Origin: Melioribacteraceae bacterium
GTDB lineage: Bacteria; Bacteroidota; Ignavibacteria; Ignavibacteriales; Melioribacteraceae
Assembly (NCBI GenBank): GCA_024103215.1
Contig: JAGFIY010000164.1
Location: 1 to 48,680 of the forward strand
DNA length: 48,680 nt
Reading direction: 5' to 3'
Part shown: in pieces, positions 5,309 to 31,400 of the stretch
Layout of the letters: every line of letters begins with the position of its first letter
Numbering within the stretch: the first letter of the stretch is position 1
The notes under the pieces: model-generated
Told to the model about the DNA's origin: nothing
Database searches by the model: none
Seen by the model: the letters and a program-made list of their open reading frames with translations, nothing else
Translations under genes and position numbers: made by a program

Positions 5309-6145
5309 ATGAGTTTTTACCCGCAGCCTAACCGCTATCAATGTGGTCCGTTCGCGTTAAAGTATGCACTTGTTATGCTTGGAATTTTTAAAAACGAAAA
5401 TAAAATTGGGATAATTGCCGGAAGTACATGGTGGGCGGGTACTGACGAAATCGGTCTGGCGCGAGCTGCTTCTTCTTTTGACTGCAAGATGAAATATTTT
5501 ACTTCCGATGATTTTGACGAAGCGCGCAAAATGTTAAATGCAGAATTAAAAAAGGGGTTACCATGCATACTTAGCGTTAATAATTGGGAGCATTGGATTT
5601 CTGTCGTAAACTATAGTCAAGGTAAATATGTTGTTGTCGATAGCGAATTGGATAAAGTTATAGCTGTTTATAATACTTCGCAGCTAAAGAGAAAATGGAA
5701 ATATTATGATGAGGAAGAGGATTATTACAGCTTTGATGGTTACGCTCTCAAACCGAAATTTAAAGTAACTACTAGGGCAAAAATAAAACTATCTCATGCG
5801 CGTCAATTGATGTTTAAAAGAAATGACGATCTCGCAAAAAAGTGGGACCAGTATTTTAATGATTTGATTTCGATTACTCGCCCACGCACAAAAATTACTA
5901 CAAATTTTTTAACATTTGATGAATTTTTAAGAAGGCACGAACATAATCTAATTAAAATTGTTGCGGATTGGCATGGGATGCCGAGTTACAGTGAGATCGG
6001 TAAAATTATAAACAACATGAAATTTATTGCCGAGGTTTACGATTTAATTATCCCACTCGCTGAAGAGAAAAGAGCACTTATTGATATCACTTCTTTGTTG
6101 ATGATGTATGCCTGCGGCAAGTACGGTATGGATCCAATTTATTAG
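5309..6145 (+). CDS. C39-like papain-fold cysteine peptidase
   Basis: A 278-residue protein with no signal peptide or membrane segment. Residues 1-150 show a C39-type papain-like fold: oxyanion glutamine and nucleophile in YQCGPFAL (Q11, C12), histidine in EHWISVV (H95) and aspartate in VVVDSELD (D111). The C-terminal 120 residues are helical, charged and unfamiliar. C39 peptidases classically cut double-glycine leader peptides as part of ABC exporters; here the domain stands alone without a transporter. AAGGAAG precedes the ATG. The gene is divergent from the ATP-grasp ligase (102-base shared promoter region) and 10 bases upstream of the isochorismatase gene. Hydrolase activity is inferred from the complete triad; the substrate is unknown. 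Confidence 0.65.
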   Translation: MSFYPQPNRYQCGPFALKYALVMLGIFKNENKIGIIAGSTWWAGTDEIGLARAASSFDCKMKYFTSDDFDEARKMLNAELKKGLPCILSVNNWEHWISVVNYSQGKYVVVDSELDKVIAVYNTSQLKRKWKYYDEEEDYYSFDGYALKPKFKVTTRAKIKLSHARQLMFKRNDDLAKKWDQYFNDLISITRPRTKITTNFLTFDEFLRRHEHNLIKIVADWHGMPSYSEIGKIINNMKFIAEVYDLIIPLAEEKRALIDITSLLMMYACGKYGMDPIY

Positions 6146-29197: not shown

Positions 29198-29884
29198 ATG
29201 AGCAAAGAAAAATGTATAGTTGCCGTAAGCGGAGGATTGGACAGCTGCATTACAACCGCAATTGCCAACCTTGACTACGAGTTGGCTTTGGCTCATATAA
29301 ATTACGGACAGCGAACTCAATCCCGGGAATTGAAATCGTTTAATGATATTGCGGATTTTTACAACGTTAAAGAAAGATTAATCATCGATTTTACTCATCT
29401 TGCGAAAATCGGAGGCTCATCTTTAACTGATAAAAATATTGAAGTTGCCGCTGCTGATTTGTTGAATGAAGAAGTACCGAATTCCTATGTTCCTTTTAGG
29501 AATGCAAACATTTTAACAGCCTGCGTAAGCTGGGCTGAAGTTATTGGTGCGAGTGCAATTTTTATGGGTGCGGTTGAAGAAGATTCATCCGGTTATCCCG
29601 ATTGCAGACCTTCGTTTTTCTCGGCTTTCCAAAAAGTTGTTGAAGAAGGAACTAAACCATCAACACACATTGAAATCAAAACACCAATTATTGATATGAA
29701 AAAGTCGGAGATAATATTAAAAGGATTGGAACTCGAAGCACCGCTTCATCTTACATGGTCTTGTTATAAAAACGAAGATAAAGCTTGCGGAGAATGCGAC
29801 AGCTGCGCACTCCGCTTAAGAGGTTTTCAGCAAATCGGTGAAGAAGACCCGATACCGTATGTAGTTAGACCAAATTATATATAG
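29198..29884 (+). CDS. queC: QueC, 7-cyano-7-deazaguanine synthase
   Basis: 228 residues. QueC converts 7-carboxy-7-deazaguanine to preQ0 using ATP and ammonia, on the way to queuosine. The PP-loop VAVSGGLDS (residues 7-15) binds ATP, and the C-terminal CYKNEDKACGECDSCALR supplies four zinc-ligating cysteines. PFRNANIL is also characteristic. In many genomes queC lies with other que genes; here queF is only 1.2 kb away, but two unrelated genes sit between. No preQ1 riboswitch was recognised in the 278 bases upstream. Confidence 0.93.
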   Translation: MSKEKCIVAVSGGLDSCITTAIANLDYELALAHINYGQRTQSRELKSFNDIADFYNVKERLIIDFTHLAKIGGSSLTDKNIEVAAADLLNEEVPNSYVPFRNANILTACVSWAEVIGASAIFMGAVEEDSSGYPDCRPSFFSAFQKVVEEGTKPSTHIEIKTPIIDMKKSEIILKGLELEAPLHLTWSCYKNEDKACGECDSCALRLRGFQQIGEEDPIPYVVRPNYI

Positions 29885-29893
29885 GAGTTTATT

Positions 29894-30133
29894 ATGAGTT
29901 TTATATATAAATCATTGTCAGAGAAACTTGAGAATCATGAATATATCTATGCCATAAGTGTTGAAGATGTACAAACTTTTGCTCAAGAAATGTTGGGTCG
30001 TAAATTAGATTTTTATGAGATGGATAGAGTAAAAGATGGTGTTGAATGGGGGATGATTGATTGGGATACAATTGTAAAGACCGCAATTTCAGAATTAGAA
30101 AACAGTTCGAAAAGAGATGGCAAAAAAAACTGA
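29894..30133 (+). CDS. Small acidic protein of unknown function, nuclease-like gene partner
   Basis: 79 residues, acidic, no signal or membrane segment. The segment AQEMLGRKLDFYEMDRVKDG followed by VEWGMIDWDTIVKTAI resembles a helical motif of short uncharacterised proteins that I cannot name. The ribosome site TAGGAG overlaps the queC stop codon, 7 bases before the ATG. The 3' end overlaps the next gene by 17 bases, so both proteins are probably made together. Immunity, antitoxin or cofactor roles are conceivable but unsupported. Confidence 0.65.
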   Translation: MSFIYKSLSEKLENHEYIYAISVEDVQTFAQEMLGRKLDFYEMDRVKDGVEWGMIDWDTIVKTAISELENSSKRDGKKN

Positions 30134-31040
30134 CATTTTATTTGAAGAGTTCTTAGAAAGAGCACAAAATTTAAAGGCATCAATTGATCCTATAAGAGTG
30201 TTGCGTGCCAGAGTATACCAAATTGGAAATGCTAACGTTTTAATTCGGGTTGCTGGGAACTCTGTAAATAACGGTCGCTACTTTTTCGGAATTAATTATA
30301 TCACTTTGGAAGAAATGGCGAATCTTGAAAATCCATTTATAGCTTTTATCTGTGGCTCAGTCGATAATACGGTTATAATTCCTGCTCAACTGTTATTTGC
30401 CAACATTTCTGAAATAAGCCATGATCGCAATGGTGAATATAAAATTAATCTGGATTCAAACTTAAATATTGTCCTAAAAGGAAGAAACAATCGTATTGAT
30501 TGCCAACCATTTATTAACGCTTGGGAATTAATTCTAAAACCACTTACTTCAAATACGGTTAGAAGTACAGCTGAAGAAAGTATTCATGCTGTTCTACAAG
30601 GAAGGTTATTAGAAATAGGGAATATCAGAGGGTTCAGAACTTATTCACCTGACAAATCGAAAACATTTAACCAAAAGAAATTATCTGAAATTGCAACACT
30701 TGATACTTGTCCAAAACTCGAATTCTCTGATTACAATACATTACGCAATATTGATGTAATTTGGTTCTCTGAAAAAAGCAGAAAACTTATTCCAGAACAA
30801 GCATTTGAAATTGAAATTTCTACCGGCACCTGGTCCGGGGTAGGAAGGCTAGCCACATTAATTGACTATCGTCATGTTAGGTTGTATATAATTTCACATG
30901 ATAACAAGAAGTATAAACAAGTAATGAATTCATTTGCAGACTATGAAAGCAGATATAAATTTGTAAACTCAGAAGCCCTAAGCGACCTTTACGCTTCAGA
31001 AAAAAGTTTAAAAGAATTAAGGTATAGAATAGGTATATAA
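30117..31040 (+). CDS. PD-(D/E)XK restriction-nuclease-like protein
   Basis: 307 residues. An N-terminal beta-rich domain (about 38-140; GRYFFGINYITLEEM, PFIAFICGS, NTVIIPAQLL) is followed by a putative nuclease core: E153/E154 in helix EESIHAVLQGRLLEIG, D213 in RNIDVIWFS and E231-I-E233 in AFEIEISTGTWSGVGRL. The spacing D-x17-E-x-E and the trailing (S/T)-x3-SG-x2-R(L) match PD-(D/E)XK proteins of restriction and defence loci; a Glu takes the place of the usual Lys. It overlaps the small acidic gene upstream by 17 bases and ends exactly where queF begins. DNA cleavage is inferred, not shown, and no methyltransferase is present. Confidence 0.6.
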   Translation: MAKKTDILFEEFLERAQNLKASIDPIRVLRARVYQIGNANVLIRVAGNSVNNGRYFFGINYITLEEMANLENPFIAFICGSVDNTVIIPAQLLFANISEISHDRNGEYKINLDSNLNIVLKGRNNRIDCQPFINAWELILKPLTSNTVRSTAEESIHAVLQGRLLEIGNIRGFRTYSPDKSKTFNQKKLSEIATLDTCPKLEFSDYNTLRNIDVIWFSEKSRKLIPEQAFEIEISTGTWSGVGRLATLIDYRHVRLYIISHDNKKYKQVMNSFADYESRYKFVNSEALSDLYASEKSLKELRYRIGI

Positions 31041-31400
31041 ATGAACGAAAAACAAAAACTAATAGAAACATTTGAAAATCCTAACAAGGAAAGAGATTAT
31101 ATAATCGAGCACACGACACCGGAGTTTACTTCGCTTTGCCCCAAAACCGGTCAGCCTGATTTTGCTACAATAATTTTAGAATATATCCCGGATGAGCTCT
31201 GCATTGAGTTAAAGTCATATAAATTTTACCTGCAGTCATTCCGCAATGACGGAATTTATTTTGAAGCGGTAACAAATCAAATATTGGATGACCTTGTGGG
31301 TGTTTGTAAACCAAGATATATGAGAGTAATTGCTGAGTTCAACACACGCGGAGGAATTTCTTCCGTAATTGAAGTTGAGTATGAAAATGAAAATTACTAA
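31041..31400 (+). CDS. queF: QueF, NADPH-dependent preQ0 reductase
   Basis: 119 residues, type I (unimodular) QueF, which reduces the preQ0 nitrile to the preQ1 amine. The catalytic motif [14 protein letters not shown] contains the cysteine that forms the thioimide and the nearby aspartate, and [20 protein letters not shown] is the family's substrate/NADPH signature. The ATG directly follows the stop of the nuclease-like gene with no gap, and no good ribosome site of its own is visible, suggesting coupling across the cassette. Below it lie 234 bases with an AT-only inverted repeat near 31405-31425. Confidence 0.93.

Follow-up and report, generated by a model that had tools for sequence, protein, structure and literature searches.

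In Streptococcus pneumoniae, DpnI and DpnII are alternative restriction cassettes housed at one place (PMC3573125). A methyl-dependent type IV REase and a methylating type II system alternate at one locus in Dolosigranulum pigrum (PMC8547433), and the PcaRCI/PcaRCII conflict is a further precedent (PMC8989522). The EVE-PD-(D/E)XK architecture belongs to enzymes that are predicted to be modification-dependent, or type IV (PMC7641849). Here we describe an insert between queC and queF in the window, a 48,680-nucleotide stretch of DNA from a Melioribacteraceae bacterium, which is best explained as a two-gene restriction cassette made of a small accessory protein and a double PD-(D/E)XK nuclease. 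The reading that we favor, at a little under even chances, is that the cassette occupies a restriction-modification (R-M) hotspot, is independent of a methyltransferase (MTase), restricts methyl-marked DNA, and displaces TdeIII/EcoO109I-type systems.

The queC-queF junction and its occupants

The four genes from queC to queF follow one another in the same direction on the + strand and have the following features.

29198..29884, +: queC (7-cyano-7-deazaguanine synthase), Pfam PF06508 QueC, E 4.8e-67; left anchor of the hotspot
29894..30133, +: small ORF for an acidic 79-aa protein, putative type A accessory, predicted all-helical
30117..31040, +: predicted restriction-type nuclease of 307 aa, PADLOC REase_II E 7e-5, 39 homologues
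30117..30554, +: nuclease N-terminal domain, residues 1-146 (AF2 model, VIA, conservation)
30567..31025, +: predicted C-terminal PD-(D/E)XK catalytic domain of the nuclease, residues 151-303 (conservation, VIA)
30753-30755, +: codon of D213
30807-30809, +: codon of E231
30813-30815, +: codon of E233
31041..31400, +: queF (preQ0 reductase), Pfam PF14489 QueF, E 7e-32; right anchor of the hotspot

Nine bases separate queC from the small ORF, the small and large ORFs overlap by 17 bases (30117-30133), and 0 bases lie before queF. A first-pass annotation, made by a model from the letters and their open reading frames, had given the same gap and overlap figures, which proved exact when the coordinates were re-read, and its acidic 79-residue protein does have that length and a pI of 4.8. 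The ORF pair is not a product of chance because 39 homologues of the large ORF occur in other genomes or at other loci, with related small ORFs before most of them. The cassette is probably expressed from the queC promoter and would then be cotranscribed with queC.

The positions of queC and queF were compared across 79 genomes of the window's family, to which Melioribacter and Melioribacteraceae MAGs belong; 61 of the 79 have both genes on one contig. Thirty-four of these junctions are compact (≤40 bp), a further 11 are 77-317 bp long, and the other 16 contain inserts of 1.2-7.4 kb. Nine of the 16 large inserts consist of a gamma-type N6_N4 methylase and a TdeIII-family REase (G001, G002, G008, G012, G048, G055, G298, G329, and G743), three of another N6_N4 methylase and an EcoO109I-family REase (G003, G049, and G051), and three of a small ORF and the 307-aa type of nuclease without an MTase (the window, G258, and G045), while one is a larger mixed island (G031); for each REase type, one representative was assigned to its family by hmmscan and the others by sequence similarity. 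The nearest relative with a compact junction, judged by queC and queF, has 16 bp there (G043), and its congener G055 has 2.8 kb. Scars are found within two of the short gaps: G038 keeps a fragment of a methylase, and G046 a solitary type A ORF. The cargo follows the strand of queC and queF throughout, bar one Dam-like gene in G031. The sister family f3 has the methylase at this junction in four genomes (G070, G081, G082, and G087) and a long junction in two others (G775 and G788). The gap between queC and queF is an insertion hotspot for R-M systems. TdeIII cuts GGNCC and EcoO109I cuts RGGNCCY; going by these REase family names, all complete occupants of the hotspot presumably share the core site GGNCC. 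A single vertically inherited insertion was considered for the three nuclease carriers, and their grouping in one clade was rejected (AU test, p 0.002); locus L036 could have left queC-queF, so this result is compatible with one insertion as well as with several.

The mixed island (L097, G031:C15:36000-45300) is a 7.4-kb insert that contains both type A and type B small ORFs. Its cargo, read by eye, includes a 464-aa ParB/DndB-like protein, a 633-aa SNF2-like helicase, a 312-aa protein, and a Myb-like repeat protein; a Dam-like methylase is encoded in the reverse direction, and an EcoO109I-type REase has left a C-terminal remnant. Such gene content is possibly that of an uncharacterised defense island.

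The 307-residue nuclease and its small partners

Within the sequence data searched, the nuclease has 39 near-full-length homologues at 54-67% identity (37 loci from a profile search of genome contigs and two from whole-genome searches), which together with the window gives 40 distinct loci. The bacterial hosts are Ignavibacteria, Bacteroidetes, Chloroflexi, Acidobacteria, Planctomycetes, Spirochaetes, Nitrospirota, and Deltaproteobacteria, and the archaeal hosts are of the Methanoperedens type. Three of the 40 loci lie at queC-queF and 37 elsewhere. PADLOC REase_II matches 27 of 32 family members; the window nuclease, which also gives this match, has no Pfam family match and hits neither TdeIII (PF09520) nor EcoO109I (PF14511). 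Single-sequence scans for close relatives found none in viral contigs, genome contigs, or phages, and a profile scan of viral contigs found no homologue, so the cassette is not phage cargo in the data searched. The nuclease is under purifying selection (dN/dS 0.04-0.19), including among Methanoperedens-type loci that have no nearby MTase trace, where dS is unsaturated and dN/dS is 0.09-0.19. Since selection persists at loci without a methylase trace, the nuclease is being used where the linked methylase family is lacking.

An AF2 model of the nuclease was built on 32 sequences (pLDDT 85, pTM 0.55). The best VIA matches of both halves are PD-(D/E)XK nucleases with Z up to 9.9: the N-domain resembles I-Ssp6803I (Z 9.9), Hjc/RecU/D212 (about 8), NhoI (7.6), and DpnI (6.3), and the C-domain resembles N.BspD6I, EcoT38I, and BamHI (Z 6-8), where values below 8 may reflect mere shared arrangement. 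Foldseek on the model returned no match at E≤1e-3. Because of this empty search and the ambiguity of Z below 8, our claim is limited to two PD-(D/E)XK-like domains, with no nearer kinship. An alignment of 32 homologues shows no variation at E153, E231, or E233 and conservation of 90% or more at D213, and the C-domain active-site set as a whole (E153/E166, D213, and E231xE233) is invariant or nearly so. An ExE variant of the PD-(D/E)XK site is known from BamHI, and the D213...E231xE233 site of the C-domain is, as read from the alignment, intact and of the BamHI type. By its modeled fold and its D...(D/E)x(K/E) residues, the protein is placed in the PD-(D/E)XK superfamily and would be expected to cleave DNA. 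The nuclease role proposed in the first pass is thus supported by both model and motif: the fold on which it hung is present, and the residues picked out then are the conserved ones. In the N-domain, a loop at residues 101-109 (SHDRNGEYK) is invariant. Catalytic residues are apparently absent from this domain, so it is presumed to bind DNA and serve in recognition. No modified-base reader fold was found among the listed VIA matches of the N-domain, which is PD-(D/E)XK-like in the model.

In relatives, shorter proteins that share only the C-domain adjoin Dam-like or other methylases, as identified by motif (L007, L008, L009, L012, L014, L015, and L020). In a genome of the same order, a 364-aa protein (L019, 981-2075, - strand) combines an EVE domain with a nuclease domain homologous to the window C-domain, with 28% identity between the two catalytic domains. 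This protein is a candidate modification-dependent REase.

Small ORFs of type A, helical and mostly acidic, precede the nuclease at about 18 of the 40 loci including the window and share 25-43% identity. Type B, which is unrelated to type A, is found at 14 loci and a third type at two, and the remaining six have another gene or none; loci apparently without a small ORF are L035, L050, L056, L060, and L063. The type of small ORF switches at least eight times along the nuclease tree, and related small ORFs also stand beside full M+R systems in the hotspot. These proteins look like swappable accessories of restriction operons, and a regulatory or inhibitory role for the small protein may be envisaged. 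One of 11 type B members matches DpnD-PcfM (PF14207) weakly (E 0.03); the type A protein of the window has no PF14207 match and no confident match in Pfam, NCBIfam, PHROG, or PADLOC. Its AF2 model is all-helical at low confidence (pLDDT 68). Most small ORFs have a pI of 4-5, and the nuclease is basic (pI 8.8). L048 (2188-2418) bears a deletion scar: a type A ORF there apparently continues in frame from the opening 15 codons of the methylase that was lost.

Methylases at the nuclease loci and in their genomes

At 24 of the 40 nuclease loci, tblastn found methylase sequence 5′ of the cassette, TdeIII-type REase sequence 3′ of it, or both, and the order is always M-cassette-R. Nearly all full-length homologues of the methylase within the class extend to residue 526-528 of 529. 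The methylase at nuclease loci is never complete and always 3′-truncated where present, ending in most of these loci at residue ~30 to ~400 of roughly 526. The longest copies, in L060 and L061, were considered as normal M-small-R systems with intact MTases and rejected because their C-termini are truncated: the last 13-20 residues, which are conserved in intact hotspot copies, have been replaced. The downstream TdeIII REase is a 5′-truncated remnant in most loci and is altered in L063 and L065. Breakpoints are scattered from MTase residue ~30 to ~515 and along the greater part of the REase gene. L046 combines an EcoO109I-type methylase remnant on the left with a TdeIII-type REase remnant on the right; the left remnants in other loci come from the TdeIII-associated MTase, which is unrelated to that of L046.

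Two further observations concern individual loci. Apparently intact TdeIII REase genes lie directly 3′ of the nuclease in L039 (5980-8260) and L062 (5977-7966), and no TdeIII-associated methylase was found in either genome. In L061, a palindromic REP-like repeat (ACGGGTCGGG...TTCCGCTGCAATC...GGATTTCCGCTTCAATCCC) at ~5668-5750 lies precisely at the junction of truncated methylase and small ORF, and L053 has a similar but weaker sequence (~2600-2690); as a boundary of the cassette, the element is not general across loci.

Over the stretch that was compared, the methylase arms are free of internal stops and show the signature of purifying selection. L044 and L045 form a sister pair in which the dS of the arm is about 0.33 versus 1.7 for the nuclease; their methylase arms break off at different residues, and their right arms belong to separate TdeIII subfamilies. 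Because the arms lack stops, are younger than the nucleases, and have mixed flanks, working methylases appear to have been displaced more than once and recently. The 24 loci do not amount to 24 independent events, since methylase-arm and nuclease distances correlate (Mantel r 0.61, p 0.008) and some will have spread together as a unit. The idea that the MTase was disrupted once, in an ancestor, is opposed by the unequal ages of arm and nuclease and by the mixed flanks (L044 versus L045, and L046). The conservation of the arms may also have another source, namely, retention of their helix-turn-helix-like N-terminus as a regulator.

No complete copy of the linked MTase family was found in the 40 carrier genomes; among 391 genomes from the class, about 15% do have a complete methylase of that family. 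No C5-MTase was found in the window genome (G000) or in 22 of the 40 carriers, and no GGNCC-type MTase was found in G000. The other N6_N4 MTases inspected in G000 are not close to either hotspot methylase, and panel MTases share mostly about 25-35% identity with the inspected N6_N4 MTases, with short stretches up to 53%. A type II R-M system calls for a cognate MTase that is linked or present, which the window cassette lacks, there being none in the window. Persistence of the nuclease without an MTase is well supported and, judged by the linked family, the nuclease appears to work without a cognate MTase in the manner of a type IV enzyme. GGNCC occurs in G000 at 130 sites in 265 kb, close to expectation. 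GGCC is five-fold depleted, with 48 sites versus 250 expected in 265 kb (the window plus 20 further contigs, L110-L129), and its depletion of about 3-20-fold in G000 and relatives is seen with or without the nuclease; it is therefore a lineage trait and no clue to specificity. Depletion of GGNCC in short loci of other carriers was set aside as a specificity clue, being without matched controls.

Readings of the cassette and comparison with known systems

R-M systems normally decay by losing the REase before the methylase, since a REase left unprotected by its methylase is lethal. At these loci the nuclease is kept and the methylases are cut, the reverse of the usual decay, which makes a modification-dependent enzyme, one that would leave unmodified DNA alone and could not live alongside the methylase, the simplest mechanism. 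In the favored reading, a cassette of small protein and nuclease would settle in the queC-queF R-M hotspot, and its nuclease, unlike the M+R occupants of sister genomes, would operate without a cognate methylase. The nuclease would restrict DNA bearing a methyl mark absent from the host, with a GGNCC-type mark as the best candidate, and the cassette would stand as an alternative to the TdeIII/EcoO109I-type systems that it displaces and be unable to coexist with them, following the logic of DpnI versus DpnII. We infer DNA cleavage and GGNCC specificity, the latter because two unrelated methylases of overlapping specificity are among the victims. The mark would be N4-methylcytosine because adenine has no fixed place in GGNCC and the methylases belong to the N6_N4 type; specificity and modification type are taken here from the family names (TdeIII, EcoO109I, and N6_N4 MTase). 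This favored reading accords with a hotspot of alternative occupants, with a cassette never found alongside a complete MTase, with a window genome that has 130 GGNCC sites and neither a C5-MTase nor a detected GGNCC-type MTase, and with a catalytic-domain relative that is an EVE-nuclease fusion (PMC7641849). Set against it are an N-domain without a recognized modified-base reader fold, the possibility that the MTases of L060 and L061, ~13-20 C-terminal residues short, might still work, the intact-looking TdeIII REases without an MTase in L039 and L062, which the model leaves unexplained, and the partial co-inheritance of MTase arms and nuclease in the Mantel comparison. Modification dependence is accordingly put forward as a tentative part of the reading. 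Its broadest form, in which the 307-aa family is a new cross-phylum DpnI-like class against cytosine-methylated (probably N4-methyl) GGNCC that invades and kills TdeIII- and EcoO109I-type operons, nuclease and methylase being unable to coexist, is more doubtful still.

The cassette could instead be what is left of a classical type II R-M system that lost its MTase, with the nuclease inactive, silenced, or protected by an unlinked nonhomologous MTase. The order MTase-small-nuclease with truncated MTases would fit, as would the C-domain relatives beside Dam-like MTases and the other N6_N4 MTases owned by carriers. However, strong purifying selection and invariant catalytic residues across many phyla argue against it, as do the absence of a C5-MTase from 22 of 40 carriers, the lack of a homologue of the linked MTase in the carriers, and an identity of mostly only about 25-35% between panel MTases and the inspected N6_N4 MTases; we regard this explanation as unlikely. 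Protection might also come from the small acidic protein, restraining the nuclease until it is removed upon infection in a toxin-antitoxin-like or abortive unit. Survival without an MTase would then be accounted for, and the genes are adjacent, often overlapping, and mostly of opposite charge (acidic small ORFs, basic nuclease). A dedicated inhibitor is nevertheless at odds with a partner that swaps between unrelated families at least eight times, is apparently missing from some loci, and has counterparts beside complete M+R systems, and we find such a unit decidedly unlikely.

Likeness of the N-domain to I-Ssp6803I, repeated presence within M-R operons, and the unequal ages of MTase arms and nucleases bring to mind a selfish homing-type element that cuts R-M loci and copies itself in. 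Variable breakpoints, the lack of an intron or intein, and occupation of unrelated sites such as queC-queF make this improbable. Service to the queuosine operon or to 7-deazaguanine DNA modification, an idea raised in the first pass and suggested by a position between two preQ0/preQ1 genes, is scarcely credible from the distribution of the pair: 3 of 40 copies are at queC-queF, the other 37 are not, 34 of 61 family junctions are empty, and ordinary R-M systems make up the rest of the gap's occupants. The same counts favor the mobile or defense character proposed alongside it, the pair not being confined to queC-queF and the junction being an R-M hotspot. The letters by themselves had not disclosed that a methylase is missing or that the cassette is linked to R-M loci of the TdeIII/EcoO109I type.

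Consistently broken methylases beside a nuclease are an unusual pattern, and the 307-aa proteins provide a defined, testable enzyme family that survives without a methylase. R-M operons are themselves sites taken by a competing nuclease cassette, and a single junction offers a natural series (empty, M+R, nuclease only, and scars) for restriction-system replacement. If dependence on GGNCC modification is true, the family would be another independent alternation of the DpnI/DpnII type and possibly a tool for mapping N4-methylcytosine.

The nearest comparisons are with the neighbors of the cassette. TdeIII (PF09520) and EcoO109I (PF14511) R-M systems have the queC-queF slot, small ORFs, and flanking remnants in common with it but carry an intact MTase, which the window cassette does not. 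The EVE-PD-(D/E)XK enzymes (PMC7641849) have an EVE domain in place of the PD-(D/E)XK-like N-domain seen in the window protein. The immigration control region of enterobacteria (PMC12707154) resembles the queC-queF slot in its conserved anchors around exchangeable restriction systems; the systems and hosts there are different, and the queC-queF slot lies inside a metabolic operon with cargo that is nearly always codirectional. The D. pigrum pair concerns m5C in a single species, whereas the cassette described here sits inside M-R operons of many hosts. Relative to DpnI/DpnII, the nuclease family is another one, the site is presumably of the GGNCC type, many phyla are involved, and the MTase genes are physically displaced; modification dependence of the window nuclease is a tentative proposal. 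The likeness to DpnI/DpnII lies in one cassette with an MTase facing one REase without, and in a small partner gene, dpnD there and the small ORF here.
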